A DNA stretch of 64,000 nt from Vallitaleaceae bacterium 9-2 (lineage in GTDB: Bacteria > Bacillota > Clostridia > Lachnospirales > Vallitaleaceae), in the NCBI GenBank assembly GCA_038396585.1, contig CP121691.1, positions 2,170,001 through 2,234,000 on the forward strand, in the 5' to 3' direction. Positions 40,951 to 56,440 of the stretch are shown here, piece after piece (position 1 is the first letter of the stretch; each line of letters begins with the position of its first letter). The notes under the pieces are model-generated. The model did not search any database. It was not told the origin of the DNA and saw only the letters and a program-made list of their open reading frames with translations. A program made the translations under genes and the position numbers.

Positions 40951-41566
40951 TCAATCCACTTCATGTTCATGACCACATTTTGGGCATTTTATTGTTCTCT
41001 TTCTTGATATCTCTTCCATAAATCCCGAACTTAATATACCAGTAGGTAAGGCGACTAATCCAATACCAGTTATAGCAATTATTGATGATAACACTTTTCC
41101 AACTCCAGTAACAGGATATATATCACCATAACCAACTGTAGTTAATGTTGCAATCGCCCACCAAAACGAAGCAACAATATTAGGAAACCCTTCTGGTTGT
41201 ATTTCGTGTTCAGCGTAATATATTAGTGTCGAAGATATAAGAACTATTAATATCATAATCGAAATCGTTGCTAATAGCTCTTCTTTCTTATCACGAATTA
41301 CCTTAGCTATCAAGTTCAATGCTTTGGAATATCTATTAAGTTTGAATATTCTAAATATCCGTGTTAATCGCAGTATTCTTAAAAATCTCAAGTCAAACGG
41401 GATAATCATCGGCAGGTAAAATGGTAAAATTGCAAACAAATCAACCAATGCCATAAATGAAAATATATATAAAACCCTAGATATCGCTTTCGATTTCCCT
41501 TCATATTTCAAATCAGCAGTCCACACTCTTAGCAAATATTCAATCGTAAATATTGTTACTGTGAAT
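40951..41566 (-). pseudogene. Voltage-gated potassium channel, 5'-truncated by the IS3 element
   Basis: The frame encodes the end of S2, then S3-S6 of a Kv-type channel: LLRVWT, the arginine-rich S4 RFLRILRLTRIFRIFKLNRY, the selectivity filter in ATLTTVGYGDIYP and S6 GIGLVALPTGILSSGF. It ends with a CPKCGHEHE zinc-ribbon-like tail. The open frame continues upstream as FTVTIFTIEY up to the IS boundary at 41566 and has no start, so S1 and most of S2 are lost. Probably nonfunctional. Confidence 0.85.
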
Positions 41567-41642
41567 TGTTCTGATACAATAAAGTTGTAACACCAAGAGC
41601 GAGTTTGATGATATAATTCAAACTTGAAAAGGAGTTACGATT

Positions 41643-41930
41643 ATGGCAAATAACAAATATGATAAGGTCCTCCAGGACAAAATTATCCGTCTTCATCTTG
41701 AAGAAGGAAGAACCATCAAAAGTTTAAGCGACGAATACAACTTAGGTAATGGCACACTCAGATATTGGCTGAATAAGCACCGTGAAGAATGCAAGAACAA
41801 CCCACAGTTACAAAGCGAAACAAATCAAATGCTTGAAATTCAACGCTTGAAGAAGGAACTTGCCGAGACCAAGAAAGAGAATGATTTCTTAAAAAAGGCA
41901 GCAGCATTCTTCGCGAAGGAAATCGACTAA
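41643..41930 (+). CDS. IS3-family transposase OrfA (helix-turn-helix)
   Basis: A 95-residue protein with the IS3/IS911 N-terminal helix-turn-helix (LEEGRTIKSLSDEYNLGNGT) and a leucine-zipper-like C-terminus (LEIQRLKKELAETKKENDF). It ends shortly after the slippery sequence A AAA AAG at 41891-41897, where -1 shifting enters the OrfB frame. Ribosome binding site AAGGAG. Confidence 0.9.
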   Translation: MANNKYDKVLQDKIIRLHLEEGRTIKSLSDEYNLGNGTLRYWLNKHREECKNNPQLQSETNQMLEIQRLKKELAETKKENDFLKKAAAFFAKEID

Positions 41931-42784
41931 AGAAGTACGAGTTTATTCGTGAGTATCATCTAGAGTTTGGCGTAAACTGGTTGCTAAATAAACTTAGCCT
42001 TTACCCAAATGACTACTACAATTACCTAAAAGACCGCAAAGCAGCCTATCGTCAGCAAAAAGAAACATTGAAGCAACAGATCAAAGATGTGTATCACGAA
42101 CTTAACGGAGCCATTGGTTACCGAATGATCTGCGATTTACTGAACCGTAAAGGGATTCAGTGCTCTTATGGTACCGTTTATTCATACATGCGTGAAATAG
42201 GCATTAAAGCCATTGTACGTCGCAAGAAGAATCCGTATATCAAAGGTTATCAGCATCACATTTTTGATAACCTGTTAGGACAAAACTTTACTGCTGCAAA
42301 GCCTAATCAGGTTTGGTGTACCGATTTTACATACCTTAGTCTGAAGAATGGTTCTAAACGCTACAATTGTAGCATTATCGACCTATATGACCGCAGTATT
42401 ATAGCTAGTCTCAACAGTAAATGGATTGATTCTAACCTTGCCATAGAGACCTTGGAGGTTGCACTAGAGGCAAATCCTGTAAGGGATGAATTGATTCTCC
42501 ACAGCGACCAGGGGTCGCAATACGCCTCAAGGGATTTCATTGCCTACTGTGCTAATAATGAGATTACTCAAAGTATGAGCAGAGCCGGCAATCCGTATGA
42601 CAACGCTCCGATGGAACGTTTCTATAATACATTGAAAACAGAGTTCGTATATCAGTACTCTTTTGAGACCGATGAAGATCTTAACCAAGGCATCTATGAA
42701 TACATCTTCGATTGGTATAACCATCGTAGACCACACTCATATAACGGTGGTAAGACGCCATTTGAAATGAGACATTCAAACTAG
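41897..42784 (+). CDS. IS3-family transposase OrfB (DDE integrase), made by -1 frameshift
   Basis: In the -1 frame after 41897 the reading continues without stop as GSSILREGNRLKKYEFIREY and on through the integrase. The part usually called OrfB from a TTG at 41981 is 267 residues. The DDE triad is visible: WCTDFTYLS, LHSDQGSQYAS and PYDNAPMERFYNTLK. HTH_21 region is GYRMICDLLNRKG. Intact, so the element may be active. Confidence 0.88.
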   Translation, partial: GSSILREGNRLKKYEFIREYHLEFGVNWLLNKLSLYPNDYYNYLKDRKAAYRQQKETLKQQIKDVYHELNGAIGYRMICDLLNRKGIQCSYGTVYSYMREIGIKAIVRRKKNPYIKGYQHHIFDNLLGQNFTAAKPNQVWCTDFTYLSLKNGSKRYNCSIIDLYDRSIIASLNSKWIDSNLAIETLEVALEANPVRDELILHSDQGSQYASRDFIAYCANNEITQSMSRAGNPYDNAPMERFYNTLKTEFVYQYSFETDEDLNQGIYEYIFDWYNHRRPHSYNGGKTPFEMRHSN

Positions 42785-42817
42785 CCACTGGTATGACAAT
42801 TTTGCTTGACTAGAACA

Positions 42818-42870: not shown

Positions 42871-42901
42871 ATTTATCCTTTCATTACAGAGTATGTATTG
42901 C

Positions 42902-43028
42902 GTATAACGTTCTCGTGTTTGAGAGGCCGTTGAGTTTACAGTGCTTGCTTATGTCAGTCACCGCTTGCGGTCGACTAACTCAAGCGCGCCTCGGTTAGCG
43001 ATACGGTCTTTCAAACACCATGTTAGAA
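42902..43028. repeat. attC site A (127 bp)
   Basis: Bounded by GTATAAC and GTTAGAA. The arms GTGTTTGAGAGGCCGT (42915-42930) and ACGGTCTTTCAAACAC pair with two mismatches, giving a long imperfect stem. It lies 17 bases after the stop codon of the ATPase-nuclease cassette. The core triplets AAC and GTT are kept, the outer bases deviate from strict RYYYAAC/GTTRRRY. Confidence 0.75.
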
Positions 43029-43045
43029 GCTGTATATTACGGAAA

Positions 43046-44734
43046 CTATGTAAACTTTAAATCTAGTTCATCTTCCATATATTCTCTTAACCGTATTACT
43101 TCAATTTTAATTGTAGTTTGGTCAGAATCCAAAAAATATTTCTTCTTTCCATTAACTACTGCAAACTTAAATACCCTGTCTATACTATCAACTTTAGAAG
43201 TCATCACTGTACCATCTTTAATATCACTATTAAACTCCCAACAAATAACCTTTCGGATATTTTGAAATGAATGGTTAAACTCATTTTTGTTTAGAATATA
43301 CTTCAATTCAACATACCAAAATTCAGAATCTGTTACTTGAGCCGGAGAATTATTTCTAGCTAATATATCTATACCTAATGATGTATTATAATCTAATGGT
43401 TCAAAATCAAAATTATCTGGATAGAAATTATATATAGTATTAAACAAAATTGATAATTCAGATTCATTTTTGGGTTCAATCAATCTAACTTTATCATGTT
43501 GTATAAACTTTCTCTTTCGTACATTTTCACTTCTTTTTTTAAACTCTATCTTTTCAATTTCTTTAGTTCGATGCTCATTTTGCCATTGCTTTAAGGTGTA
43601 GATTTCCTTTTTATATAAATCCTCATTAACTTCATCTAAGCAATTTTGAATCTCTCCTTTTACCGCTTCTAAATGGTCAATATTTGTATTAGCAATAGTA
43701 CCTCTATTCGCTGTTAATTTAAAATGTTGACAGTTTACAAATGCATGTAGCATTACAACAGAGTTTGAACCTGTACCAAAGTTGCTTACCCAACTATTCT
43801 TATTTTCTATTGGTATATAGTCTTTACATAGCCAAAGTCCATATCTATCTGATACTTTGTATTTACCCGTTCTTCTTGACTTTCTTTCTGCGAGCATATG
43901 ATTATATTTCCGCTTAGCTTTATCACCTTCTACATATATTACTACATCGTATTTAATATACGGAAACCTATCTAAAGTGCAATCTTCCCAAACATACTTT
44001 TTAACAAAATGGTCAACTGCATCCGTTTTAAAATCCTCAAAAAGTTGATTTATATCACTATTTTCTTTAGCAAAGCGATGCCCAAACTCAAGCACCTCAT
44101 ACCCATCTTCTTTATCAAGTGCAGATAACTTAATTGTGAATGCCTTGGGATTGTTACCTTCAAATTCTTTTTCAACTGAACCATGTTTCGTGAACCAATA
44201 AATGTAATCTACAATGATATCTTGTCTGTAATGTGATGTCTCTTTTGAATAATTTTCAAGAATTATTTTTGTGCCTTTTTGTGTAGTTTCTGGATCTATA
44301 GTTTTAACTTTAGGTTCATGTAATATCCCTCTATTTAAAGACCTAAAAGGGTTATCACAATATGAATGAAAAGCTTCTTCACCTGTAGATGTGGTCACTT
44401 CAATCCTTTCTGCACGTAAGTAGATCTTTGTACCGTGACCTTTTTCTCCAATTAAATCTGGATTGCCCTTAGAACTGGAATCACCAAGATTCCAAAAATT
44501 TTGTGTCAATCTATCATATGTCATTCCTTCACCATCATCAGTAAAACTCATCATTAACACATCTGATCCCTGTGTTGTATCAATATAGATATCAATAGAT
44601 AACTCAGAAGCACCTTTATCATATGAATTTGATATTGCTTCTCTAATTACTTCTAATGGATTCCCAAAATCACTGGCAATTTCTAAAAACTCATTTTCTT
44701 GGTTTACCTTTGGTACAATTGTTTGATATGACAT
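43046..44734 (-). CDS. GHKL ATPase fused to a PD-(D/E)XK-like C-terminal domain (cassette gene, defence candidate)
   Basis: A 562-residue protein. Residues about 20-190 are a GHKL (Hsp90/MutL/MORC-type) ATPase: LEVIREAISNSYDKGA (N box), SFTDDGEGMTYD (DxGxG-type) and GEKGHGTKIYLRAE (lid). The C-terminal region, about 440-540, has NTSLGIDILARNNSP followed by EFWYVELKYILNKN, i.e. an acidic residue and ExK as in PD-(D/E)XK nucleases. ATPase-nuclease fusions of this kind are typical of anti-phage effectors; function here is inference. It is flanked by attC A and B, so it is a gene cassette. Confidence 0.8.
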   Translation of the reverse strand: MSYQTIVPKVNQENEFLEIASDFGNPLEVIREAISNSYDKGASELSIDIYIDTTQGSDVLMMSFTDDGEGMTYDRLTQNFWNLGDSSSKGNPDLIGEKGHGTKIYLRAERIEVTTSTGEEAFHSYCDNPFRSLNRGILHEPKVKTIDPETTQKGTKIILENYSKETSHYRQDIIVDYIYWFTKHGSVEKEFEGNNPKAFTIKLSALDKEDGYEVLEFGHRFAKENSDINQLFEDFKTDAVDHFVKKYVWEDCTLDRFPYIKYDVVIYVEGDKAKRKYNHMLAERKSRRTGKYKVSDRYGLWLCKDYIPIENKNSWVSNFGTGSNSVVMLHAFVNCQHFKLTANRGTIANTNIDHLEAVKGEIQNCLDEVNEDLYKKEIYTLKQWQNEHRTKEIEKIEFKKRSENVRKRKFIQHDKVRLIEPKNESELSILFNTIYNFYPDNFDFEPLDYNTSLGIDILARNNSPAQVTDSEFWYVELKYILNKNEFNHSFQNIRKVICWEFNSDIKDGTVMTSKVDSIDRVFKFAVVNGKKKYFLDSDQTTIKIEVIRLREYMEDELDLKFT

Positions 44735-44771
44735 ATACTATTCTCCTTTTTTATATATAGTAATATATTGC

Positions 44772-44845
44772 TTCTAACGTTCCTGCAGTTCCCGACTTGT
44801 GCATCCTCCGATTTCCTGTACATGTTGGGAACTGGCGTGTTAGAT
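44772..44845. repeat. attC site B (74 bp)
   Basis: TTCTAAC at one end and GTTAGAT at the other. CAGTTCCC and GGGAACTG form the outer stem. Central CATCCTCCGATTTCCTG is shared nearly unchanged with sites D and E. It lies 37 bases upstream of the ATPase-nuclease gene. Confidence 0.8.
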
Positions 44846-44895
44846 GATGCCCTACCTTTCCGAGGAATTAAGCCATGGACGGCGTAGTGACGACT
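44839..44895. repeat. Cassette 3'-flank repeat R1, copy 1
   Basis: About 57 bases starting GTTAGATGATGCCCTACC and ending GTAGTGACGACT. It recurs with few mismatches at 45925-45981. The remainder of the 44.9-45.2 kb gap shows no gene; it must be the 3' part of the 45230 cassette. Confidence 0.75.
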
Positions 44896-45132
44896 ACTTA
44901 TATTTTCTCAATCTTATTAACGTTAATAAATTTCACTTATATATTAAATTTCAATTTGACGCTGAGTTAACTAATTATTCATAGTCTATATCGAATTACT
45001 AGAAAAACCAATTACAACGGTAGTAAATGGTACTTCTTAAAAATTTTATTGTAATTTTTCCTGATGTGAATTTATATTGCTTTTTAAAGCCTTAATCATT
45101 CACTTGGAAATTTCAGAAAAATTTATCACAGG

Positions 45133-45158
45133 TACTACAAGAGTTACCTCTTGTAGTA
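45133..45158. repeat. Perfect 11-bp hairpin in a non-coding gap
   Basis: TACTACAAGAG-TTAC-CTCTTGTAGTA. No run of T follows on either strand, so it is not a clear terminator. A lone GTTAGGC core-like motif lies at 45175-45181, which could mark a decayed cassette end between the lipoprotein gene and attC B. Confidence 0.5.
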
Positions 45159-45229
45159 ATAATAACTTTGTTTTGTTAGGCCCTGGATAGGATAATGTAG
45201 TCCCTCACCATCAAATAGAATTTTTTATT

Positions 45230-45715
45230 CTATTCCTCGCATATTAATCCTGCCTTAATGTAATCTGTCTTTAAAATTGAGTATACTACTTCATAATCAT
45301 CATTCAGATACACTATATCAACTAACTGGCTTTCATTAATTAATAAAGACTCTACATCCATCGCCTCAAAGTCATAGGTCATATTTAACACAATATAATT
45401 ACTCTCAATTTCACTACTATAGCTAAATCCATTTACATCAAACACTTCGTTAGAAAAGGTTTTATCCGCTAACTCCTTTTTCATTTTTAAATTATCATAC
45501 TTGCCATCTATTAATTCGTATTTATCCATAACCACAGTTTTAATAACGATATTATCAATATGATAAACTTCAACCTGATATGAATGTTTTACCTTCGACT
45601 CGTAAATATTAGTCTCAGTAGGTTCTATGCTAAATTTAGAAATCACTTCTTCGTTTGAAGTACATCCACACAATATAAATATTACAAATATGCATATACT
45701 TAATATTTTTTTCAT
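45230..45715 (-). CDS. Cassette-borne lipoprotein, unknown function
   Basis: A 161-residue lipoprotein: ICIFVIFILCGCTS is the signal and lipobox. The mature part is beta-rich with KFSIEPTETNIYESKVKHSY and SLLINESQLVDIVYLNDDY, perhaps related to DUF1307 lipoproteins. Ribosome binding site CAGGAGA. It lies between attC B and attC C and shares both flanks (R2 before, R1 after) with the next cassette. Confidence 0.7.
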   Translation of the reverse strand: MKKILSICIFVIFILCGCTSNEEVISKFSIEPTETNIYESKVKHSYQVEVYHIDNIVIKTVVMDKYELIDGKYDNLKMKKELADKTFSNEVFDVNGFSYSSEIESNYIVLNMTYDFEAMDVESLLINESQLVDIVYLNDDYEVVYSILKTDYIKAGLICEE

Positions 45716-45789
45716 GTAATTAATCTCCTGGTCTTATTATCACTACCCATTTCCAACAGTTAACTGAAGGTCAAATCAAATTTTAACAT

Positions 45790-45887
45790 TCACTATTTGC
45801 AATCACTTCATATCAACCTAATACTAGCACTACATTGACGTAGTGCGGAAACTACATGGTAGGGTTTCATCTAACGTTCCCGCAATT
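45790..45887. repeat. Cassette 5'-flank repeat R2, copy 1
   Basis: About 97 bases, from TCACTATTTGCAATCACTTC through the GCACTAC/GTAGTGC hairpin and GTAGGGTTTCATCTAACG into attC C. Copy 2 is at 48625-48721 with about 90 percent identity by eye. It lies 75 bases before the lipoprotein gene start. Confidence 0.8.
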
Positions 45888-45931
45888 GCCATCATCCCAG
45901 TCTGTGCATGATGGCAATTGTCGTGTTAGAT
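45869..45931. repeat. attC site C (63 bp)
   Basis: ATCTAAC (consensus RYYYAAC) to GTTAGAT (consensus GTTRRRY). CAATTGCCATCAT and ATGATGGCAATTG give a perfect 13-bp stem. The palindrome extends outside the cores as GGTAGGG...CCCTACC. It is the shortest site and is farther (198 bases) from its gene's stop. Confidence 0.85.
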
Positions 45932-45981
45932 GTAGCCCTACCTATCCGAGGAACGAAGCCATGGACGGCGTAGTGACGACT
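45925..45981. repeat. Cassette 3'-flank repeat R1, copy 2
   Basis: Second copy of the block at 44839-44895 (CCTATCCGAGGAACGAAGCC against CCTTTCCGAGGAATTAAGCC). It belongs to the 3' end of the 46129 cassette. Bases 45982-46128 show no gene. Confidence 0.75.
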
Positions 45982-46128: not shown

Positions 46129-48432
46129 CTACTGAATTGTTATCACCTTCAGATCTCCATCCCAACTAACAGACTTATCAAAAGCTTCTAAAATTGCCCT
46201 TACCGGTACATAGGTTCTATTTTCTATTAATGTTGGCGGTATATCGATTTCGTGAAGTTGATCATTAACATAAACTTCACGAAGATCAATCTGCATTACA
46301 ACATTATTAACCCCATCACTCAGTATAATAGATTGTGTCTCATCAACCCATTCAATGTCATATCCAAAGCTACTTCCAATATCACGAAGCGGAATCATCG
46401 TTCTTCCCTCTACTACGGTTGGCTTCACTGTAAATTCTAAAAATTCATTGTTATAATTTACAATAATATCATCATTATTTTTCATTAGTTTAAACATTGC
46501 ATTTGCATCTAATCGGAAGTTTTTATTATATAAAATCGTATCTTCATCAAAAGTTTTTTCTACAACTTTCCAATCTGTCAAATTATTACTTTCATGTACA
46601 ACAGAATTTCCGATAACCCTATATACGCCATCCTCATAATTACATACTGATTCTGCTTCACTAAAGAGTTCTTTAACTGTAAAATTTTCAAAATCATTAG
46701 TCTCAATACAATAATATTCCGATGGCTTATAACTGCTTGAATTCCCAAAATCCATAACCCATAATTTGTAAGTACCATTATCATATATAATATCTTCTAT
46801 TCCATAATTTTCTCCTAATACCTCAAGTTGCTGCCTTACTCCAGTCTTTATTTCCCAATCTATAAGGTTTTCTGAAATAGCAAAGAAACCATAAGCACCC
46901 CTTGTATAGTATTGTCCATTATCCAATTGATATACCGTATTAAAATGTGTGCTATAACCTGCTGCTCCTTTATATTCATAAGTTCTAGGACAATCGTATT
47001 CCTCAACCAATACCCAATTATTCAGATCTGAAGATTCGATGATATAATAATGAACAAGACTCAGCGTACTATTTCTATATCTGAAGATCAACCGCCATCC
47101 ATTATCGACTGTACTTAGATTGACACAACTCATTTCCATACCATAATATATATATTTATTAAATGTTAGTTTCTCATGGGTTGGTACTGCTTGAAACTCA
47201 TCTCCACTTGCATGAATATTTACTTCGATATCAATACTACCAAGGATTTCATATCCTTCTTTTTCGTCATATAGGGCGATTTTGTATGGCTCATCATCGT
47301 TAGCAACAAGATAGTAATCACCATCAGAACTCCCGCCTTCATGACCAGATATTCTTTCAATATAAGTGTAATCAAATTTATTGGTATCTTCGTTTCCTAC
47401 AAACTGCCATTCCATCATATTTCGGGATGTATAGATATCTCCATTGACATACTGAACATAATACATATCTTCATCTTCTTGAAAGTATGCTGATTCTATT
47501 TCACTAATAAAGGCATTTTCTGGCATTTCTGTATTCCAACTATTGAAATATTCAAGGTAATAATCATAATGTGACACATCCAACTGATTTGATATATCCA
47601 ACGCCTCTACAATGTTATCCGCATCAATAGAATATAATTGTTCAAAATCAGATTCTCCATCAAACTGATACACCGTTACTGATTCAGAATTTTTAACCAT
47701 ATATATTTTTTCCTCATATTTATATAATCCTCTATATCTACTATCATCAAGTTCATGTGCTGTCTGATTGATTCCATACCAATTCACTTGGTCATCAGTA
47801 TAGAATATCCCATAATGATAATCCACACCTCCCAAAGAATTTTTTTGGACATAATCAACAATAGAATATGACCGATTTCCAATATATTGTATTTGGTTAA
47901 AATGAGCAGATATAACCGATTCTATTTCAACATTATCACTTGTATAAAAATTCAATTCTTCAGTTTTCCAAGTTCCGCCTTCATTTGTTACTTGAAAAAC
48001 TTCTTGAATGTTTAAATCTAGATACGGCGTAATATAAATATAACCATTATAATACCGAAAACTATCTACATAATGCGGTATATCTATCTGTCCAACTACG
48101 TGTCTCCCATCAAATTCTATTATTTTCTCACCATAAAATAATAACGTATCATCAAACTCATTGTATCGAATTCCGGAAACTCCAGTTCCATTAAAAAACT
48201 GATCACTTAAGTTTGTGTACTTTGTTCCATCAAATTTTATCGCTGTCATATCTGATGTTGCTGCATACCATTCACCTTTATAAAAAATTACTTCACTATC
48301 AATTTCCGACATCAGGAATTCATCAATATATTTGATGTTATCACGAGTATCTGAAACTTCTTCTGCTACAACCAATTGAGTACCTACTGTCAATAGCATA
48401 CAACAAATAAACCCTATTATTACCTTTTTCAT
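46129..48432 (-). CDS. Secreted protein with C-terminal copper amine oxidase N-terminal-like (stalk) domain
   Basis: A 767-residue exported protein: signal peptide VIIGFICCMLLTVGTQLVVA. A long region with repeated YxxG/W-rich strands follows (for example NGYIYITPYLDLN, GKWYAATSDM-like segments) that looks like a beta propeller. The last 110 residues form the copper amine oxidase N-terminal-like domain common in Clostridia: GRTMIPLRDIGSSFGYDIEW and ENRTYVPVRAILEAF. Start ATG at 48432 with GAGGAG upstream. Wall-associated role likely. Unusually large for an integron cassette. Confidence 0.75.
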   Translation of the reverse strand: MKKVIIGFICCMLLTVGTQLVVAEEVSDTRDNIKYIDEFLMSEIDSEVIFYKGEWYAATSDMTAIKFDGTKYTNLSDQFFNGTGVSGIRYNEFDDTLLFYGEKIIEFDGRHVVGQIDIPHYVDSFRYYNGYIYITPYLDLNIQEVFQVTNEGGTWKTEELNFYTSDNVEIESVISAHFNQIQYIGNRSYSIVDYVQKNSLGGVDYHYGIFYTDDQVNWYGINQTAHELDDSRYRGLYKYEEKIYMVKNSESVTVYQFDGESDFEQLYSIDADNIVEALDISNQLDVSHYDYYLEYFNSWNTEMPENAFISEIESAYFQEDEDMYYVQYVNGDIYTSRNMMEWQFVGNEDTNKFDYTYIERISGHEGGSSDGDYYLVANDDEPYKIALYDEKEGYEILGSIDIEVNIHASGDEFQAVPTHEKLTFNKYIYYGMEMSCVNLSTVDNGWRLIFRYRNSTLSLVHYYIIESSDLNNWVLVEEYDCPRTYEYKGAAGYSTHFNTVYQLDNGQYYTRGAYGFFAISENLIDWEIKTGVRQQLEVLGENYGIEDIIYDNGTYKLWVMDFGNSSSYKPSEYYCIETNDFENFTVKELFSEAESVCNYEDGVYRVIGNSVVHESNNLTDWKVVEKTFDEDTILYNKNFRLDANAMFKLMKNNDDIIVNYNNEFLEFTVKPTVVEGRTMIPLRDIGSSFGYDIEWVDETQSIILSDGVNNVVMQIDLREVYVNDQLHEIDIPPTLIENRTYVPVRAILEAFDKSVSWDGDLKVITIQ

Positions 48433-48624
48433 AATTCTTCTCCTCGCTTCCCACATATCAACATCCTTACTTCTGTCATCTGCATTACAGGATATGATTG
48501 TGGATATCTACTATTTATAATAAGTTGAACCATTAATTTCTACTCAGAATACGCTTACATTAATAATCAAAAACTAGTTGTATTTGTTCCAATGATTTCT
48601 TCACTTCAGATTTAAATTTGACGC

Positions 48625-48721
48625 TCACTATTTGCAGTCACTTCATTTAACCCAATACTAGCACTACATGGACGTAGTGCGGAAACTACATTGTAGGGTT
48701 TCATCTAACGTTCCCGCAATT
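48625..48721. repeat. Cassette 5'-flank repeat R2, copy 2
   Basis: Copy of 45790-45887 upstream of the secreted-protein gene. It includes the GCACTACATGGACGTAGTGC hairpin and runs into attC D. Bases 48433-48624 hold no gene. Confidence 0.8.
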
Positions 48722-48775
48722 CCCGGCGTGTGCATCCTCCGATTTCTTGCGCATGTTGGGAACAATGTGTTAGCT
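48703..48775. repeat. attC site D (73 bp)
   Basis: ATCTAAC to GTTAGCT (one base off GTTRRRY). Arms TTCCCGGCGTGTGCA and TGCGCATGTTGGGAA pair imperfectly. Its centre is the same as in sites B and E. It lies 22 bases after the stop of the 48798 gene. Confidence 0.82.
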
Positions 48776-48797
48776 GAAGTAATAACGGCGGTCTACA

Positions 48798-49436
48798 CTA
48801 CTTGTTTTTAGCTTTCCTAAATCGTTCAAATTCAATACCCCAAAACTTAATCTTACTAGCGAATGGAGCAATAATAAGACCTATAATTGCTCCGAGCAAT
48901 GTTAAATCTGTTGCTGAAAGAGTAAATGACCATATCTTTGACCCTACTCCAATTCCAAATAGAATCCCAGCTAAAATCCAACTTACTAGCGAAAATCGAT
49001 CTACAACTTCTTCCTTCTTCTTCTCAGCCTTATTTGCTTTCTCTGCTAGTCTTGCCTTTCTTTGTAAATTATAATCGATACTCTTCACGGACTTATATTC
49101 TGCAACATCAAGATTGCTAATATTTGCATCTACTTCAATAACTTCAAAGAATGGATCAACATCCTTTGGAAATACCAAATAAGTAGGGATTTCTTCTGGT
49201 AAATTTAGTTCTTGAACATATCTCCTAAGTTGATCGGTCCCCATCCTAACAAAGTCTCTTCTCTTACGAGATTTCAATTCAAATAGCATTATAGGTAGTT
49301 GCGTCGTTGTATCGATCACAGCTAAGTCAACCCTCCCTCTTCCTGCCTTATACTCAGTTAAGAGACTCTCCTCTGGAAAACCATGTTCTAATAAATAAGT
49401 TAAAAACTTATCCATTAAATCTCTTTCTAACTCCAT
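48798..49436 (-). CDS. PD-(D/E)XK nuclease-like protein with two membrane helices (cassette gene)
   Basis: A 212-residue protein. The N-terminal 110 residues resemble the HSDR_N/type I restriction nuclease domain: LLTEYKAGRGRVDLAVI supplies Asp and MLFELKSRKRRD the ELK motif. The C-terminal part has two helices (SLVSWILAGILFGIGVGSK and LTLLGAIIGLIIAPFAS), so the domain sits at the membrane. A nuclease with membrane anchor is seen in some abortive defence effectors. Single cassette between attC D and E. Confidence 0.78.
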   Translation of the reverse strand: MELERDLMDKFLTYLLEHGFPEESLLTEYKAGRGRVDLAVIDTTTQLPIMLFELKSRKRRDFVRMGTDQLRRYVQELNLPEEIPTYLVFPKDVDPFFEVIEVDANISNLDVAEYKSVKSIDYNLQRKARLAEKANKAEKKKEEVVDRFSLVSWILAGILFGIGVGSKIWSFTLSATDLTLLGAIIGLIIAPFASKIKFWGIEFERFRKAKNK

Positions 49437-49463: not shown

Positions 49464-49536
49464 TCAGCTAACGTTCCCACTGTTCCCGACGTGTGCATTC
49501 TCCGATTTCCTGCGCATGTAGGGAACAGTGTGTTAG
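49464..49536. repeat. attC site E (73 bp)
   Basis: AGCTAAC to GTTAGGC (right side fits GTTRRRY). CACTGTTCCC and GGGAACAGTG form a perfect 10-bp stem. 20 bases after the stop codon of the HEPN-like gene. Confidence 0.85.
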
Positions 49537-49556
49537 GCGAAGTAAATTCCAACTTA

Positions 49557-50525
49557 CTATATAGTATAAATATTCCAGCTGGCATTCAGTATATCCCTTA
49601 TACATGACAACACTACGAAGAAATACTCTACACTCGTGTCAGAAGTTATCGACCATGCTTGACCAATATCTGAATCAGGACCGTGATTACAAGCATTCCT
49701 AATATGACCTAAATACTTTGACATGAACTTATGTTTATGTAGTATCTTATTGCTCGAAGACAATCTATCAATCTTGGCATTTATCCCATTAGCACCACTC
49801 ATATTCACACTATTATCATCCCCAAACTTATTAAGAAATGATTCAAATGCATTTCCTGCGTGGAGTATTGCGCCTCTTGGATCATTGCTTATTGTCACAA
49901 TCTTTAAGTATGAGGTGATAAGTGGTTCAATAACATCAGTATTACTTACTGAATTACATACTCTGTCACCTAATCTATTTCTTATTTCAACTTCTGCTTC
50001 AGTTCTTGAAAGTACGGATTCTCCAACCACAAGTAACGGAATATGTTGTTCATTTGATGAGTTTACTTTGTACAAACCAGCGCCCTCCGAAACAAGGATT
50101 CTGGCATATGTTCCTAGACTAGTCAACGTATCTCTTACTTCATCACGATGTGTTGCTAAGGAGTAAAAAGCTTTAACTTGTTCAGCAGCTATGTGGACAA
50201 ATCCCGTTACTTCTAACCTCATTGTAAAAAACTTAAACGGTTCAAATTCCTCAAGCAAAATTCTGATAACAGATGATTTTAGCTTCTCATCATTTGTAGC
50301 CAAATGCTTGGTAAGCATAGAATCACAATAATATTTATTATCACCAGAATTCATCTTTAGAAGACCTAATTGAACAGACATTTCAAGTGAATTGCTGATA
50401 GAAGCTAAAGGAATATCCAAAAAATCTGCCAACTCCTGATTAGTACATCCATTTTTAAATAAATTAACTGCTTCCGCCGCAGTTACAATATTCTCAGCTG
50501 TAGTAGGTACAATAACATAACTCAT
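49557..50525 (-). CDS. Winged-helix protein with HEPN-like C-terminus (second gene of a two-gene cassette)
   Basis: A 322-residue protein. The N-terminus is a helix-turn-helix (NQELADFLDIPLASISNSLE). The C-terminus about 225-320 resembles an Abi-C/HEPN domain: AILHAGNAFESFLNKF, then HIRNACNHGPD, which has the R-x4-H motif of HEPN RNases, and a last hydrophobic helix EYFFVVLSCIRDIL. It is 14 bases after its partner without an attC site between them, so the pair moves as one cassette. Possible toxin or abortive-infection effector; inferred. Confidence 0.7.
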   Translation of the reverse strand: MSYVIVPTTAENIVTAAEAVNLFKNGCTNQELADFLDIPLASISNSLEMSVQLGLLKMNSGDNKYYCDSMLTKHLATNDEKLKSSVIRILLEEFEPFKFFTMRLEVTGFVHIAAEQVKAFYSLATHRDEVRDTLTSLGTYARILVSEGAGLYKVNSSNEQHIPLLVVGESVLSRTEAEVEIRNRLGDRVCNSVSNTDVIEPLITSYLKIVTISNDPRGAILHAGNAFESFLNKFGDDNSVNMSGANGINAKIDRLSSSNKILHKHKFMSKYLGHIRNACNHGPDSDIGQAWSITSDTSVEYFFVVLSCIRDILNASWNIYTI

Positions 50526-50539
50526 AATTACCTCCTACT

Positions 50540-51256
50540 TCATTCATCTATATTGACTTTCACTTGTTGATTTAAATCGGAAATCAATTTATTTAGTTTA
50601 GTACCTAACTCGTCCAAATCCTCTACTTTTATATCAAGATTTATGTCAATATTTATAGCTAACTGATTTCTATTGTTAGAATTACTAGATATTGTAAATT
50701 TTTGTTTATCTGGTTCAACAGGCTCTTGTATCACTTGATGAGTTTCCTTATTTATAGCAGCTTTTTCGATATCAGAAATAGCAACGATCTTCCCCTCCTC
50801 TTCCTCAACAAGTTTAGCAAGCTTAAGAATTTCAATAATTGTACTAGAACCAATTTTCACATAATTATTACTCTTCTGACCAGAAGAATATGCTATATGA
50901 CTCTTTAGACTTTGAATATCCATGCCATTTCTTATCCTTATTGCAGAAAGCATCTTTGAGAAAAAATCATTTTCGATGGCAATATCTTTCCACAATCTCT
51001 GAATCTCATCTGCAATTCCGTGTTCAATAGCACGAGATAACTCATTGCCACTTTCTGTGATAGATTTATTTCTTGCACCTTCGATTATTCCAGTAGCCAA
51101 TAAAAAACCACTATTTCGACTAATTTGTGTAGATGGTACACCACATCTTTGACTCAAATCGTCTAGTGATGCTTCTCCATTCGCATGTCCATAAGCAAGT
51201 ATAATCTTTTCAAGTTCCTCATAACTTGAACCTGGTAATTTAAATTCTGTGTTCAT
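50540..51256 (-). CDS. Winged-helix protein (first gene of the two-gene cassette)
   Basis: A 238-residue protein with winged-helix pattern SLDDLSQRCGVPSTQISRNS, then a second one around SSTIIEILKLAKLVEEEEGK, and a C-terminal beta/helix segment (NRNQLAINIDINLDIKVEDL and ELGTKLNKLISDLNQQVK) that may be an oligomerisation domain. DUF5343-like logic, family uncertain. It has AGGAGG before its ATG. Its N-terminal domain resembles that of the following protein, so the two may form a complex. Confidence 0.65.
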   Translation of the reverse strand: MNTEFKLPGSSYEELEKIILAYGHANGEASLDDLSQRCGVPSTQISRNSGFLLATGIIEGARNKSITESGNELSRAIEHGIADEIQRLWKDIAIENDFFSKMLSAIRIRNGMDIQSLKSHIAYSSGQKSNNYVKIGSSTIIEILKLAKLVEEEEGKIVAISDIEKAAINKETHQVIQEPVEPDKQKFTISSNSNNRNQLAINIDINLDIKVEDLDELGTKLNKLISDLNQQVKVNIDE

Positions 51257-51314
51257 AAATACCTCCTTAAAATTTGTCGTTTATTTTATTCCTCATCATC
51301 GAAGAATTTATTTC

Positions 51315-51388
51315 GCCTAACGTTCCGGGTGTTGCCGACGTGGACATCATTCCAATTTATCGTCCATGTTGTCAATGCGCTGTTAGAC
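51315..51388. repeat. attC site F (74 bp)
   Basis: GCCTAAC to GTTAGAC, both exact fits to RYYYAAC and GTTRRRY. Inner segments GTTGCCGACGTGGAC and GTCCATGTTGTCAA pair imperfectly. Palindromic flanks TTCGCCTAAC and GTTAGACGAA extend the cores. It is 29 bases past the OLD-like gene. Confidence 0.88.
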
Positions 51389-51417
51389 GAAGCAATCAAC
51401 GGAAGCTACCAATCCCA

Positions 51418-52911
51418 TCAATTTGATAAATTAGTACACAAAAATTCTGTCAATGCTTTCATATTTTCATCAGGTTTTTCAAATAAATATTCTACAACCG
51501 AATCGGATAAAACGGATTCTAGTTTTCTCATCTGCCTTAACTCATGCTGAAGCTTTGAATAAAACGCCTTACCGTTCTTAATCTTTTCTTCATCGTTTAT
51601 CTTTCCGTTTTTGACTTCAGTCTGATATTCAGATACAATATCCGATAAAGATTTATTCTGAAAAACGTAATCATTCATCACTCTAAAGAAACAGTGATCA
51701 ACCTTCAACACTAATCTTTCAACAAGGTACTTCTCTAAGCTCTTTATTGGTAGATAATGAGGTGGATTAGCGAACCCAATATTGTTTTTGTTCATAAAGT
51801 TTGGTACAAGACCTTTGATGTCTCGATCCAAGACAATCATTATCTTTGTTGTGTTCAATGTAAGATTGGATTTAATCATATCGTATGTGAAACGTATTAC
51901 TTCAGCCCAACCACCTACTGGAATAACTAAAACCCTCTTATTACCAAGCAGTCTCTCTTTATAGAGAATTCTATTTAAAATAGCTTGAGCAAGATTGTCT
52001 TCAACAACAAAAATATAATCATGTCCATAGTTAGAGGACTCTAGATTTCTAGTTGCATAGACTGGATAACAAGGATTTATTACTTCAATTGATTTGTCAG
52101 TATGTCTTTGTAAAAAATAAATCCGGCTATGGTCAATATTTCTTATTAATTCTATAGAATGAGTTGAAAATATTACTACAAAATTATGTTCTTCTGACAA
52201 TCTCTCTAAGAAAAAAACAAGTCTTCTTAATGCTGATGAGTGTAAAGCCAACTCAATCTCATCAAGCAATATTAATGCTGGCGTTGTTCCATAATTCTCG
52301 CGACTTATTCGTATATGAAGAGATTGAAGTATACTTAAGAGCAAGTTTTCTCCAGTAGACATATGAAGTTGATTTACCCTTCTATTATTTTCATAATTAT
52401 AATAAAGAGCTCTCATTAAATCATATTTACGCTTTGAATTTTCACCTAAGACCCTTAGGTCTTTGTAGTAAGTTTTATCATCTCTCAGTATCTCGCCAAG
52501 ATTATCTTTAACAAACTGCGGTGCATCTTCAAGTTCACTTTCCTTCACTTTAGATACTTTCTTTAAGTTCTTAAAATCAACATCTTTAAACCTATTCCCA
52601 AATGTTAAACTACCTTCATAAAAGCCCGTAATACCAAGATGACCTGACGCATCAAACCACTGACCTTTCTTCGACCTAATATTTCTTTTATTGCCTTTAT
52701 ATTGAAAAGAAATCGACGAATGCATAGGCGTTCCAAAATAATGATACATCATTGGATTATAGAATGATGTTGACATTGCCATCATAATGGTACTCTTTCC
52801 TGTTCCATTCTCACCTGTAATTGCATACAATCCTTTAGTCATTGGAATATTAAACTCGAATTCCTTGATGGATTTTATGTTCTTCACGTTCATATTTATA
52901 CTCATAATCAT
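51418..52911 (-). CDS. OLD-family ATPase-TOPRIM endonuclease (cassette gene, defence candidate)
   Basis: A 497-residue protein. Walker A is AITGENGTGKSTIMMAM, the signature region is HMSTGENLLLSIL, Walker B is ALILLDEIELALHSSAL and the switch is FSTHSIEL. From about residue 300 a TOPRIM domain follows: DYIFVVEDNLAQAILNRIL (conserved Glu) and IMIVLDRDIKG (DxD). This is the layout of OLD nucleases such as the GajA-type anti-phage effector. Here it stands alone in its cassette without a UvrD-like partner. The start may be the ATG at 52905, with better spacing from GGAG. Confidence 0.85.
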   Translation of the reverse strand: MIMSINMNVKNIKSIKEFEFNIPMTKGLYAITGENGTGKSTIMMAMSTSFYNPMMYHYFGTPMHSSISFQYKGNKRNIRSKKGQWFDASGHLGITGFYEGSLTFGNRFKDVDFKNLKKVSKVKESELEDAPQFVKDNLGEILRDDKTYYKDLRVLGENSKRKYDLMRALYYNYENNRRVNQLHMSTGENLLLSILQSLHIRISRENYGTTPALILLDEIELALHSSALRRLVFFLERLSEEHNFVVIFSTHSIELIRNIDHSRIYFLQRHTDKSIEVINPCYPVYATRNLESSNYGHDYIFVVEDNLAQAILNRILYKERLLGNKRVLVIPVGGWAEVIRFTYDMIKSNLTLNTTKIMIVLDRDIKGLVPNFMNKNNIGFANPPHYLPIKSLEKYLVERLVLKVDHCFFRVMNDYVFQNKSLSDIVSEYQTEVKNGKINDEEKIKNGKAFYSKLQHELRQMRKLESVLSDSVVEYLFEKPDENMKALTEFLCTNLSN

Positions 52912-52939
52912 ACTCTCCTTTAAAATAGTTGATCGTTTC

Positions 52940-53013
52940 CTCTAACGTTTCGCATGTTGACGACGTGGACATCCTTCCGATTTCCTGTCCATGTTGTCAA
53001 CATGCTGTTAGTC
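52940..53013. repeat. attC site G (74 bp)
   Basis: CTCTAAC to GTTAGTC, each one base off consensus. GCATGTTGAC and GTCAACATGC form a perfect 10-bp stem, continuing to CGTGGACA/TGTCCATG. It lies 33 bases after the stop of the 53047 gene. Confidence 0.83.
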
Positions 53014-53046
53014 GACGTAATTGATGACCCCTTTAGATAAACTGGG

Positions 53047-54213
53047 CTAAAGTCTAATAAACTCAGCTTTTTCTGCCAAATAGACAAATTCTTTCTTTCC
53101 AACTGCTATTTCACTACATACAGTAGCAGTAGTCTGAGATTTTAAGTACGCCACACCACTCTTATCTATATAATCTATAGCCACTTTGGTTCTGTTAGTA
53201 AGTTCCCATAACTTAAATAAGAACGCTGAAGCCTTAACGGAACGAAGTTTCACATCTTGGTCTGTCATTTCTTGTACTGTTACTGTAACCACCATTCCAT
53301 CATCATTTACGTTTATGAGCTCAAATCCATTAGTAAATAATTCTGTATGAAATAACATTTGCCATGTTTCATCTCTAATTGTTGATGTCTTTGTAACCGC
53401 TTGATAATAAGGTGAAATCTCATAGATATTGTCATATAAAAAGAACTTAGTTGCAAAATTAACTATCTGCGACAATGTATTAAGCAAAACTGATATCTCT
53501 AGCAATTCTTCCTTATCTTCTACAACAACTTCCTTGTCTAGGTTTCTTCCGTAAGCACACTTAATTGATGTTCCGACTACTTTGTAACTTTTATGACAAG
53601 CAATATTCCTCCATTGTGTTAATGGAACATTATGAATTTCAGAACAGGTAAAATCCGCTAATATACCTAATGTCTTGAATTCATTATAAATATTACCAAA
53701 TGATAACTTCATCACTTTATCTAACTCTACTGTTGGATTTGCCTTTAGCCTCTTGATATAGACTAGAAAACCAAGAAAAACTTTCAGCATAACTTCACCG
53801 ATATTTTCTATCAATCCAAACACTTCTGTAATATACTCAAACAGTTCTAACTCAGATAAGTCTCTTTGTAATATACACAAAGACCAATGCTTGTTTCCCA
53901 TTTCGGTTGTCAATTCTTGAAACTCTGCAAATGCTTTATATACTGAATCCGGTTCTACTGCTTTCACAGAGTTAAGATAATCTACAACTTCTTGTATATG
54001 GTCATGTAAACCCTCATAGTTGTTCTTATTGTAGTTAATCCAATCATGCACAAGAAAATCAAGAGAATATCTCTTAAGATTTTCTTTGTTTTTAAAGAAG
54101 CTAGAAAAAGTAAAAATAATATCCCCTGTTATCTCTTCTTTACTCTTCCCTTCTTTTACCTCTCTTCCTAATTCGTGCATACATAATTCATCACTCAATT
54201 TTTTATAAATCAT
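53047..54213 (-). CDS. Hypothetical cassette protein with a HEPN-like R-x4-H motif
   Basis: A 388-residue mostly helical soluble protein with no recognised family. Within a helical region it has LTQWRNIACHKSYKV, an R-N-x3-H arrangement as in HEPN RNase active sites, preceded by the helix ADFTCSEIHNVP. The N-terminal part (SLDFLVHDWINYNKNNYEGL) and C-terminal beta part (DKSGVAYLKSQTTATV) are unassigned. Between attC G and H. Could be a nuclease or a nucleic-acid-associated defence protein. Confidence 0.6.
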   Translation of the reverse strand: MIYKKLSDELCMHELGREVKEGKSKEEITGDIIFTFSSFFKNKENLKRYSLDFLVHDWINYNKNNYEGLHDHIQEVVDYLNSVKAVEPDSVYKAFAEFQELTTEMGNKHWSLCILQRDLSELELFEYITEVFGLIENIGEVMLKVFLGFLVYIKRLKANPTVELDKVMKLSFGNIYNEFKTLGILADFTCSEIHNVPLTQWRNIACHKSYKVVGTSIKCAYGRNLDKEVVVEDKEELLEISVLLNTLSQIVNFATKFFLYDNIYEISPYYQAVTKTSTIRDETWQMLFHTELFTNGFELINVNDDGMVVTVTVQEMTDQDVKLRSVKASAFLFKLWELTNRTKVAIDYIDKSGVAYLKSQTTATVCSEIAVGKKEFVYLAEKAEFIRL

Positions 54214-54253
54214 AACTACTCCCTTTTTCCACTTATACGAATCAATTATGTCG

Positions 54254-54380
54254 ACTAACGGACCGCCGGTTTACGCTGTACGGGAGCTTACAGGATGAGC
54301 TTATGGCTGTGAGCCTGCGAACGCCTTATGCGATTCCGACTCGGTTAGCGAGCCCTATAGCGTAAAACGGGTGTTAGACG
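54254..54380. repeat. attC site H (127 bp)
   Basis: GACTAAC (A at position 2) to GTTAGAC. Arms CCGGTTTACGCT and AGCGTAAAACGG pair, and an inner stem is seen around AGGATGAGCTTATGG. Same length as attC A. It lies 18 bases after the stop codon of the 54399 gene. Confidence 0.8.
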
Positions 54381-54398
54381 AATTATGAGACGCCAAGT

Positions 54399-55046
54399 TT
54401 AAAATGTATTTGCCATAAACTGCTCAATTCCATTAAGCATATTCACAACATCATTAAAATCATAATCATCAAACTTTCCATGTGCTGCTGAGTTACCTAC
54501 ATCAAGCCATGATTGTATCAATCTCCACTGTGGAGTAGAATATACTCCTTGTTTCTTCAACTCATCATTAAGACGCGCGGCTTTAAGATTTTCAGTTATA
54601 TCTTCACGCCTTGCAATTCGTTTCAAAGTATCTTCAACTACAACACGTCCCAAAACAGCAGCAGGATCTTTATGTTGTGCTTTCAACAAGTGCTTTGCTT
54701 CTTCAAGCACACTATCAAATATCTCGCCGGCTATTACAAACTCCTGACCTTCTATAAAACCGTTCTCAACATCATCAAGCGCTCCAATTAGTAAGCCTTT
54801 TATAGCCTTGACGTGCGAAGTTTTGGAAACTTGCCCAGTTAACTTGTTCAACTCACGCTTATGAATACTATGAGTTCCAAAAACGACTTGCACTATATTC
54901 TTAACTTTGGTAAGCCATGCATTTAGGGTCACTTTCTCACCTATATAATCACCATATGTATCCTGAACTGTTGAATCTAGAACATCATCTGCTTCATCAA
55001 TCAGTTCCCTAATGCGTTCGACATACCGCTTCATTTTGTACTTCAT
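54399..55046 (-). CDS. HEPN/DUF4145-like protein (first cassette)
   Basis: A 215-residue helical protein. The C-terminal 100 residues follow the DUF4145/HEPN pattern: VLGRVVVEDTLKRIARRE, then the helix PQWRLIQSWLDVGNSAAHGKFDDYDF, where N-SAAHG replaces RNxxAH and thus lacks the catalytic arginine in register. Proteins of this type often are non-catalytic partners in defence systems. It is the cassette nearest the attI-like end of the array. Ribosome binding site AAAGGAG. Confidence 0.68.
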   Translation of the reverse strand: MKYKMKRYVERIRELIDEADDVLDSTVQDTYGDYIGEKVTLNAWLTKVKNIVQVVFGTHSIHKRELNKLTGQVSKTSHVKAIKGLLIGALDDVENGFIEGQEFVIAGEIFDSVLEEAKHLLKAQHKDPAAVLGRVVVEDTLKRIARREDITENLKAARLNDELKKQGVYSTPQWRLIQSWLDVGNSAAHGKFDDYDFNDVVNMLNGIEQFMANTF

Positions 55047-55080
55047 TGTGCTCTCCTTTCGAAACCAAGTCTCATGTTTT

Positions 55081-55087
55081 GTCTAAC
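55081..55087 (-). repeat. Core site GTTAGAC at the array end (attI-like)
   Basis: Minus-strand GTTAGAC fits GTTRRRY and lies 34 bases ahead of the first cassette gene. No matching partner core is found in the next 150 bases, so it is not an attC but is placed as an attI crossover site would be. Confidence 0.55.
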
Positions 55088-55100
55088 GCCACTGTTTCTA

Positions 55101-55186
55101 CATTGCATCAATCCCCCCTTTGCCATATGGGTTTACGCATTGCGACAATATGCATTTTATTGCAGGGTTGACGCATTGCGACAATA
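55101..55186. repeat. Three direct repeats at 36-37 bp spacing beside the attI-like core
   Basis: ACGCATTGCGACAATA occurs exactly at 55135-55150 and 55171-55186. A degenerate copy CATTGCATCAAT is at 55101-55112. The spacing of CATTGC is 37 and 36 bases. The position next to the core recalls the DR elements of attI sites that bind integrase. The rest of the gap up to the metA terminator (55187-55465) shows no convincing gene; an 86-codon plus-strand frame there is not supported. Confidence 0.6.
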
Positions 55187-55465
55187 CACTTACGGTTTTG
55201 ATGCGTTTATATACTTTTGTTTTATCTTATATACGCAAAGAAGACCAACTGCTTTATGGAATAAATAGTAAGGCCTTGGTGACACTTTTATTCTGCGTTG
55301 GTCTGTGTATTCTATATTTTGTTGTACTGTATTTTTTGGTTAAAAATGATTGCTCTGGTGCTATTAAGCTCGCCATTTGATTTTCCCCCATCAATAATTT
55401 ACTCACCTAGTTATTATTTTACCATATTTTGATATATCTTCCAACAACAGATGCCCCTTTTGTAC

Positions 55466-55501
55466 AAAAAAAAGCTGAAAGCCTTTTCATGGGCTTCAGC
55501 G
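55466..55501 (-). terminator. Rho-independent terminator after metA
   Basis: On the minus strand GCTGAAGCC and GGCTTTCAGC pair around CATGAAAA, followed by eight T. It starts 16 bases after the metA stop codon. Confidence 0.88.
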
Positions 55502-55516
55502 TTTTTATATTGAGTC

Positions 55517-56440
55517 TTATTCTCCACCGATTTCTTCCATTAAGTATGGTGTCATCTGGTAGACGTAATAGTTTAGCCAGTTTGAGTATAGAAGGTGCGC
55601 ATGGGACTTCCAGGTAGATTCCGGTTCTTTGGATACATCATCATCAGGAAAATACCTGTGCGGAGGATGCGGATTCATCCCCTTGGATTGATCCCGTTCA
55701 TATTCTTGCTTAAGGGTATCTGAATCATATTCTGAATGACCTGTCACAAAAATCTGCTTCTCGTCTTTAGATACAGCAATGTATAGTCCGGCTTCTTTTG
55801 ATGTTGAAATCAAGCGAATCTGATCATGTTCTAGCACATCATCTACCGATACCGTCGTATGTCTCGAGTGTGGCACCATAAATTCATGGTCAAACCCACG
55901 TACCAACGGACAGTATGGATCACTGACAGAATGTTTGAACACACCATGGAGCTTATTTTTTAGAGGTATCTTATGAATACCGTAGTGATAATAGAGTCCT
56001 GCCTGCGCTCCCCAGCAGATATGGAAGGTGGAGGTTACGTGCTTCTTGGTCCATTCCATGATTTCTGTTAGCTCTTCCCAATAGGTTACCTCTTCAAAAG
56101 GCAAGTTCTCCACTGGTGCTCCTGTTATAATCATTCCATCAAACTTTTTATTCTTTATGTGATCAAAAGTTGTGTAGAACGAACGCAGATGTTCAATCGG
56201 GGTATTTTTGGATTGATGTGTTTTTGGCATCAACAAGGTTACCTCAATTTGCAGGGGTGAATTACTCAACATTCGTAATAGCTGGGTCTCTGTCTGCTCT
56301 TTTAGAGGCATCAGATTGAGGATGGCAATATGCAAAGGACGTATATCCTGATGCATTGCACGCTTGTCATCCATGATGAAGATATTCTCATCTTGTAAAA
56401 TCTGTTTTGCCGGCAAATCATTGGGTATCTTAATGGGCAT
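55517..56440 (-). CDS. metA: Homoserine O-acetyltransferase (MetA family)
   Basis: A 307-residue MetA enzyme, first committed step of methionine synthesis. The nucleophile cysteine is in [16 protein letters not shown], and the His-x-Glu pair is in FVTGHSEYD. At the position that decides the acyl donor, [14 protein letters not shown] has Glu where E. coli has Gly (Gly111 to Glu), which in the family marks acetyl-CoA in place of succinyl-CoA. It follows ilvB by 29 bases and shares its T-box leader. Confidence 0.9.

Follow-up and report, generated by a model that had tools for sequence, protein, structure and literature searches.

Three attI-like sites and one integrase without the IntI insertion suggest a multi-attI chromosomal integron in Vallitaleaceae bacterium 9-2

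The chromosome of Vallitaleaceae bacterium 9-2 carries three attI-headed cassette arrays (A, B, and C) and one integrase gene, and therefore a single integrase faces all three arrays. The best explanation, to which we assign a probability of roughly 0.8, is a multi-attI chromosomal integron at three places that would be worked in trans by one integrase lacking the I2 insertion. This reading was drawn from sequence comparison, and recombination is inferred. The genome is complete in a single contig (C1; 3,813,169 bp). The window, that is, the whole stretch of 64,000 nucleotides that was analyzed, corresponds to C1:2170001-2234000 and holds array B.

The attI sites and their iterons

For array B, an earlier note had described an attI-like end with a lone GTTAGAC core upstream of the first cassette, two exact iterons and a degenerate third at 36- to 37-bp spacing, and metA with its terminator, not intI, as the neighbor. 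All of these elements were seen again, at the following window positions.

55081-55087, minus strand: core GTTAGAC of attI B, putative crossover point and start of cassette 1
55098-55113, no strand assigned: third iteron, degenerate
55135-55150, no strand assigned: iteron ACGCATTGCGACAATA, copy 1
55171-55186, no strand assigned: iteron ACGCATTGCGACAATA, copy 2
55231-55461, minus strand: attI B leader, about 231 bp, 81% like the array C leader
55254-55376, minus strand: 40-aa frame in the leader (counterpart at C, 43 aa, L018:14099-14230)
55416-55444, minus strand: promoter-like TTGGAA-17-TAAAAT with TG, candidate Pc by consensus match only
55478-55497: terminator-like hairpin beside metA
55517-56440: metA (PF04204), neighbor of attI B

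The exact iterons are 36 bp apart, with the degenerate copy 37 bp further, and they form the sole exact 16-mer repeat at 17- to 60-bp spacing in the 64-kb window. A tblastn search with the array-A integrase was negative in the window at E ≤ 1, and none of the seven phage-integrase-family matches of the genome falls inside it. Among Rfam families, only a T-box reached its gathering score in the window.

The leader common to B and C had no other match in this genome. The candidate Pc has identical hexamers and the same 17-bp spacing at C, and it points into the array at both sites; four promoter-like sites were observed near attI B, against 2.5 expected by chance. Transcription of the cassettes from this leader may be proposed as an inference only. 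As a gene, the leader was rejected: 12 of the 13 changed codons between the B and C frames are replacements, so a selected peptide is unsupported.

The earlier note had proposed that the iteron be searched for across the genome. The exact 16-bp iteron was found at only three places, the two in the window and C1:1347315. The latter is 878 kb from the window and two bases past the stop codon of a gene (C1:1346437-1347312) for a tyrosine recombinase of 291 aa (here, the array-A integrase). With up to three mismatches allowed, 44 matches were obtained, compared with 21 for a control pattern. The tighter pattern TATTGYCGCAATGC with at most one mismatch gave five matches, four of them the iterons of attI A and B, and one match when reversed as a control. 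At attI A, an imperfect iteron, TATTGCCGCAATGCTA, follows the exact one by 37 bp, and then come a 13-nt spacer and a GTTAGAG core. The cassettes of array A follow this core on the same strand. The integrase reads toward its array, with attI A at its 3' end. The attI-like reading of the window site is supported by this result, since the same iterons stand at the own attI of the only closely related integrase in the genome.

An attC model (R1) was built from 16 attC sites of arrays A and B and none of array C. At E ≤ 1, with 150 of 875 candidates scored, it gave at least 25 genome matches, and all those listed belonged to three clusters, at A (1.348-1.359 Mb), at B (the window), and at C (2.813-2.820 Mb). 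Array C starts with TGTTGGCGCAATGCGTAAACAGTGGA followed by GTTATAC; attI C lies at C1:2819992, 1.47 Mb from the recombinase gene. Its single clear iteron is degenerate and sits behind an unrelated gene, with no integrase gene adjoining. The distance from the iteron end GCAATG to the core is 13 nt at A, B, and C alike; shared iterons and geometry can be read off the sequence directly. An attI site with a GTTR core adjoining an integrase gene is present at A, and at B and C the site stands without such a gene. With at least two attC sites and no integrase nearby, array B also meets the definition of a CALIN.

The integrase and its attC sites

A genome search for tyrosine recombinases with the IntI patch, also suggested by the earlier note, left the array-A integrase as the sole close candidate, and it lacks the IntI insertion. 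At E ≤ 1e-30, this protein matched only itself in its own genome, and no second such integrase was found. The other six phage-integrase-family matches look like a Xer protein, a XerS-like protein, one short protein, and long phage/ICE types (by reading, not formally typed). Of the three options that had been left for the missing integrase, encoded elsewhere (878 kb away) and of a new type (without the IntI insertion) both fit; loss is not supported at this site, as tblastn gave no convincing remnant in the 1.2 kb before the B core.

The array-A integrase scored 172.7 bits with NCBIfam model TIGR02249 (cut-off, 265), in two separate stretches, and 190 bits with a XerA-like NCBIfam model (cut-off, 220). 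The distance from the KDR box to the HxLRH box is 62 residues, compared with 103 in five of five true IntI proteins, and it is 57 to 63 residues in all 15 rows aligned (12 of clade 1 and 3 of family f72). The IntI-specific insertion (I2, or patch) is missing from it. Inspection by eye showed all catalytic boxes (R, K, HxxR, H, and Y) at their expected positions. A tree of 35 rows placed all five IntI proteins in one group (support, 100/99), with the array-A integrase outside. The clade-1 group was weakly supported (68/58) and included unlabelled relatives; therefore, we restrict the claim to a position outside IntI. For comparison, TIGR02249 matches above the cut-off occurred in at least 2 of 398 genomes of the phylum in a survey that scored at most five candidates per genome and in which the own integrase went unreported at E ≤ 1e-40. 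Upstream of the integrase, a LexA-like GAACN4GTTC box was found at none of 12 loci and a loose TGT-N-ACA match at 3 of 12, with crude patterns and approximate starts.

The attC sites have inverted RYYYAAC/GTTRRRY cores, a hairpin, and a preference for the bottom strand, the last in terms of predicted stability only. In the first set of sites, the bottom strand was favored in 15 of 16. The model gave 94 matches in 19 sources, 53 of which scored at least 45.9 bits; six in the loci of Clostridiales bacterium UBA4039 were omitted, and 47 were folded. The bottom strand was predicted to be more stable in 46 of these (18/19 own, 28/28 related). A one-sided 4-nt bulge between two stems was predicted in 38 (15/19 own, 23/28 related), and 26 had no single extrahelical base at all (12/19 own, 14/28 related). 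The mean number of single-base bulges per predicted fold was 0.42 for own and 0.64 for related sites. As a control, three 94-bp sites from a genome with a true IntI (G403) were predicted to carry three single-base bulges each, and their top strand was slightly more stable in all three. This contrast rests on predicted folds and on three hand-picked control sites of one genome. The five long attC sites of the own genome (about 129 bp) scored below 28 bits and were outside the 47 folded.

Because the integrase lacks I2 and the attC sites are, in predicted folds, poor in single extrahelical bases, the integrase probably reads attC as a near-perfect hairpin, with the strand chosen by stability. 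The choice of strand would then come from hairpin stability more than from extrahelical bases, and the stability bias would come from G-T pairs that the bottom strand forms at positions of A-C mismatch in the top strand. As far as the accessible text of PMC7790495, PMC3053210, and PMC4792948 goes, IntI docks single extrahelical bases of attC, and I2 is viewed as existing to hold them. The predicted scarcity of such bases beside a missing I2 fits this published role. It is also conceivable, but in our judgment unlikely, that the same multi-attI system recombines attC in double-stranded form as Xer does, a difference of mechanism only that overlaps with the best explanation. The lack of an I2 domain and the few extrahelical bases would suit a double-stranded substrate, but such a site has no need of long palindromic stems or of a strand bias seen in 46 of 47 predicted folds.

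Cassette content and exchange between arrays

Array B runs from attI B through eight cassettes to an IS3-like element, at the following window positions.

54252-55087, minus strand: cassette 1, 215-aa ORF at 54399-55046 with a sub-threshold DUF4145 match
54252-54380, minus strand: long attC of cassette 1
52939-53014, minus strand: attC of cassette 2; 388-aa ORF at 53047-54213
51314-51389, minus strand: attC of cassette 3; 497-aa AAA ATPase, defense-like, at 51418-52911
49465-49539, minus strand: attC of cassette 4; two ORFs, 50540-51256 and 49557-50525
48702-48776, minus strand: attC of cassette 5; 212-aa ORF at 48798-49436 with a sub-threshold PD-(D/E)XK nuclease match
45868-45932, minus strand: attC of cassette 6; 775-aa ORF at 46129-48456
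44771-44846, minus strand: attC of cassette 7; 161-aa ORF at 45230-45715
42901-43029, minus strand: long attC of cassette 8, scored weakly by the model (24.6 bits); 562-aa HATPase-like ORF at 43046-44734
41563-42817, no strand assigned: IS3-like element (named by eye), far end of array B

PADLOC matched the ATPase of cassette 3 to ATPase-Toprim_I-B-like. Its defense models also matched a Pycsar cyclase (PycC) and PDC-S46 in array C (L018:8130-13442) and PDC-M02B in array A (L017:375-1499). A roughly 526-bp cassette that has no evident long gene and carries an attC of the long kind (about 127 to 129 bp) occurs twice in A and once at the head of C (L016:16473-17002, L017:3924-4453, and L018:13464-13993).

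The turnover of cassettes was compared with that in Clostridiales bacterium UBA4039 (L020), which has a 99% identical integrase and the same three attI sites. Upstream of the core, the two genomes agree in 394 of 400 columns at attI A and in 390 of 402 at attI B. At both sites, the agreement ends at the core GTTA, and different first cassettes lie beyond. At attI C, a global alignment matched only 346 of 451 columns because of indels, and blastn gave 97.2% identity over 609 bp; here too, the first cassettes are unlike. UBA4039 has two iterons at attI C and the own genome one, a difference of one 37-bp repeat period. In addition, the first cassette at A in UBA4039 is the first cassette at C in the own genome (94.8%).

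Within the own genome, A and C share 530-bp blocks that run exactly from core to core (97.4% and 95.5% for the two A copies). Cassette 1 of array B is also present in array A, in an 879-bp shared block (98.5%) that begins at the core and overruns the next core by about 43 bp. B and C share 969 bp (95.0%; window 44923-45890), which includes the cassette 7 ORF and excludes its attC; because the attC end is left out, this block is not by itself a core-to-core transfer. The A-C blocks and the switches of first cassette thus indicate, by comparison only, that cassettes move as core-bounded units. Switches at the core and sharing between arrays, both observed, are the traces to be expected if a single integrase acts on three attI sites.

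In the proposed mechanism, the integrase would bind the iterons at attI A, B, and C, excise cassettes by recombination between attC sites, and insert the excised cassettes at the core of whichever attI it occupies, with the iterons as a guide. Insertion at all three cores by one integrase would mean that cassettes move among the arrays, through action in trans. Binding to the iterons, trans action, recombination of single-stranded attC, attI-attC recombination, and cassette expression are all inferences. Neither recombination nor excision circles nor binding has been observed, and this counts against the best explanation, as do the lone clear iteron at own attI C, the relatives with attC or integrase alone, and the lack of extra attI sites in the five other genomes probed (see below).

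Arrays B and C might instead be dead remnants, static since the loss of their own integrases, i.e., CALINs with a kept attI. Such decay does occur in relatives: all four species of genus g8 have one array whose neighboring integrase is broken or truncated (L054, L045, L048, and L037) and whose attI is retained. For example, L054:3900-4650 of G016 (C1:3.274 Mb of that genome) has a truncated integrase (L054:4241-4579) with intact attI repeats heading a large array, and the same 27-bp attI stretch accompanies broken integrases in G009, G013, and G018. Orphan attI sites can therefore also arise by decay. For B and C, however, we consider this improbable. A tblastn search with the array-A integrase in the 1.2 kb upstream of the B and C cores gave no convincing remnant (best E, 1.4), and at E ≤ 1, nothing was found in the window, at the C locus, or at the B and C loci of UBA4039; moreover, at B and C the two relatives have different first cassettes. 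A further point against the best explanation is that a plasmid-borne integrase passing through could have placed the cassettes at B and C.

Less probable still, cassettes may have been shifted by homologous recombination or by a shared IS element, without an integrase. The 1.25-kb IS3-like element is 99.9 to 100% identical in all three arrays (window 41563-42817, L017:6635-7888, and L018:9550-10801), and no core marks the end of the B-C block. However, the A-C blocks run exactly core to core, the A-B block begins at a core, and the IS element is absent from the ends of both.

Relatives, known systems, and significance

Among 96 related genomes, at least 14 had attC matches at E ≤ 0.001 (at most 50 candidates per genome scored, with strict filters), and integrase matches at E ≤ 1e-30 were seen in 17. 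Of these, G003, G007, and G054 were set aside because they had only matches running into an IS91-type transposase, which left 14. A clade-1 integrase was present in 11 of the 14 genomes with attC matches, compared with 3 of the other 82; the Fisher test of this association takes no account of kinship. The exceptions were G002, G019, and G054, with attC and no clade-1 integrase at the threshold used, and G004, G017, and G026, with an integrase and no attC matches.

In the relatives, lineage-specific repeats lie behind the integrase stop codon and are followed by GTTA or GTTG. Thirteen of 20 rows had a best self-match shift of 36 or 37 bp (own A and B; UBA4039 A, B, and C; UBA2432, G016, G018, G013, G009, G017, G004, and G014), including 10 of 16 integrase 3' ends, that of array A among them. 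Another shift was best in own C, G034, G006, G011, G475, G136, and G214. G041 and G026 had no recognizable core and were omitted, the table had no shuffle control, and the G017 score (10/24) was no better than background shifts. As repeats recur behind integrase stop codons across relatives, the iterons look like a trait of the integrase family and not of metA. That they are operators of an unrelated DNA-binding regulator of metA, as the earlier note had allowed, or of the cassettes was not borne out and can practically be dismissed: they do also lie just downstream of a candidate promoter, but the same iterons follow the integrase gene, a degenerate form of them follows an unrelated gene at C, and repeats of other sequence occupy the same place in relatives. 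The metA-attI stretch had no match in the two same-genus genomes searched, whose metA status was not established.

Extra attI sites were sought with one pattern each in G006, G016, G009, G013, and G018, and one site was found in each; a second, intact integrase of G016 has a different attI outside the pattern probed. The multi-attI state is therefore known from this genome and UBA4039 only.

More distant matches were also noted. Three recombinases of family f72 in the same phylum (L079, L080, and L082; 46 to 49% identity) have repeats and GTTA behind the stop codon, so the system may reach well beyond the order of the window. The Chryseobacterium plasmid NZ_CP041688.1 (L084:3761-8000) encodes a recombinase of 49% identity that lacks the I2 insertion. 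Behind its gene come a GTT core and an attC-like palindrome that ends in CCGTTATACG, and five genes there share one direction; this may be a system of the same kind in Bacteroidota. A match in Gelidibacter (L022) was 25% identical. Recombinases at 31 to 42% identity were considered as canonically oriented integrases and rejected, because their 3' flanks run into an IS91-type transposase (by eye). Such elements, with a tyrosine recombinase and the transposase, occur at L044, L051, L052, L027, L037, L050, L047, and L049. In L044, L027, and L052, the left end of the element, GTTG plus about ACTAAACCGCTAGCGCGGTAGC, lies in an attC core, and in L037 it lies in an attI core; no such end was seen at L049. 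Integron sites seem to be the target of this mobile element, which would use a cousin of the integrase for this.

In the integron of Treponema denticola, the integrase gene is likewise turned toward the array, but that integrase is a true IntI. The published systems below were compared through the portions of the cited papers that were available. Like the Vibrio-type sedentary chromosomal integron (PMC11023631), the present arrays are headed by attI, have cassettes bounded by attC sites that are predicted to fold on the bottom strand, and have genes reading away from attI. Here, by contrast, the integrase lacks the IntI insertion, falls outside the IntI clade, and has attI at its 3' end, and there are three attI sites in one chromosome and attC sites predicted to be poor in single extrahelical bases. 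Like a CALIN (PMC9024848, PMC8618304, PMC9668308), the window array has no integrase gene nearby, but it keeps an attI that matches the own attI of a distant integrase, and its first cassette differs between relatives. The available descriptions in those papers set no attI criterion, and an origin of CALINs by off-target insertion by an IntI elsewhere, or their mobilization in trans, has already been proposed (PMC8618304, PMC9668308).

Class 1 attI1 likewise has a core with upstream direct repeats (DR1 and DR2), which bind the integrase (PMC8946536, PMC12901181, accessible parts); here, the repeats are 36 to 37 bp apart, binding is inferred, and no sequence comparison with attI1 was made. In XerCD-driven CTXphi integration, an I2-less recombinase acts on a hairpin without extrahelical bases (PMC4792948, in part), as is inferred here for many attC sites, whereas the present system has a dedicated integrase, many cassettes, and an attI of its own. 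The patch is present in archaeal IntIs, with attI directly downstream of intI, according to the portion of PMC9668308 at hand. In the available text of PMC8946536, attI and IntI are thought to coevolve, and the shared iteron fits this view.

In the accessible sections of PMC9024848, IntegronFinder 2.0 found one complete integron and a few CALINs in all Firmicutes, attI sites are called poorly described outside class 1, and an extra domain is said to make IntI easy to distinguish from other integrases. By inference, systems of the present kind would show up only as CALINs in IntegronFinder. Literature on integrons in Clostridia, Firmicutes, Vallitalea, and Bacillota revealed no such system in titles and the beginnings of abstracts, and subscription papers were mostly outside this coverage. 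The "integrons" of a Petrocella paper (PMC6647913) are, in the part available, conjugative integrated plasmids.

Whether there is a Bacillota lineage of cassette capture without I2, the domain regarded as the key innovation of integrons, with an integrase of a different branch, bulge-poor attC, attI with 36- to 37-bp iterons at the integrase 3' end, and here a network of three attI sites served by one integrase, we regard as an even question. If true, this lineage would be a relic of a stage before I2 or a separate origin of integrons. The available portions of PMC7790495 and PMC4792948 claim that I2 made single-strand recombination possible, and IntI1 without I2 is described as a dead protein (PMC7790495). 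If the I2-less integrase recombines attC hairpins, that claim would become testable with a natural enzyme. For the cell, several attI platforms per integrase could allow several first-cassette positions to be expressed at once. Because the cassettes include candidates for a Pycsar cyclase, PDC-S46, and PDC-M02B, the system would also bear on how anaerobes store and swap antiphage defense genes.
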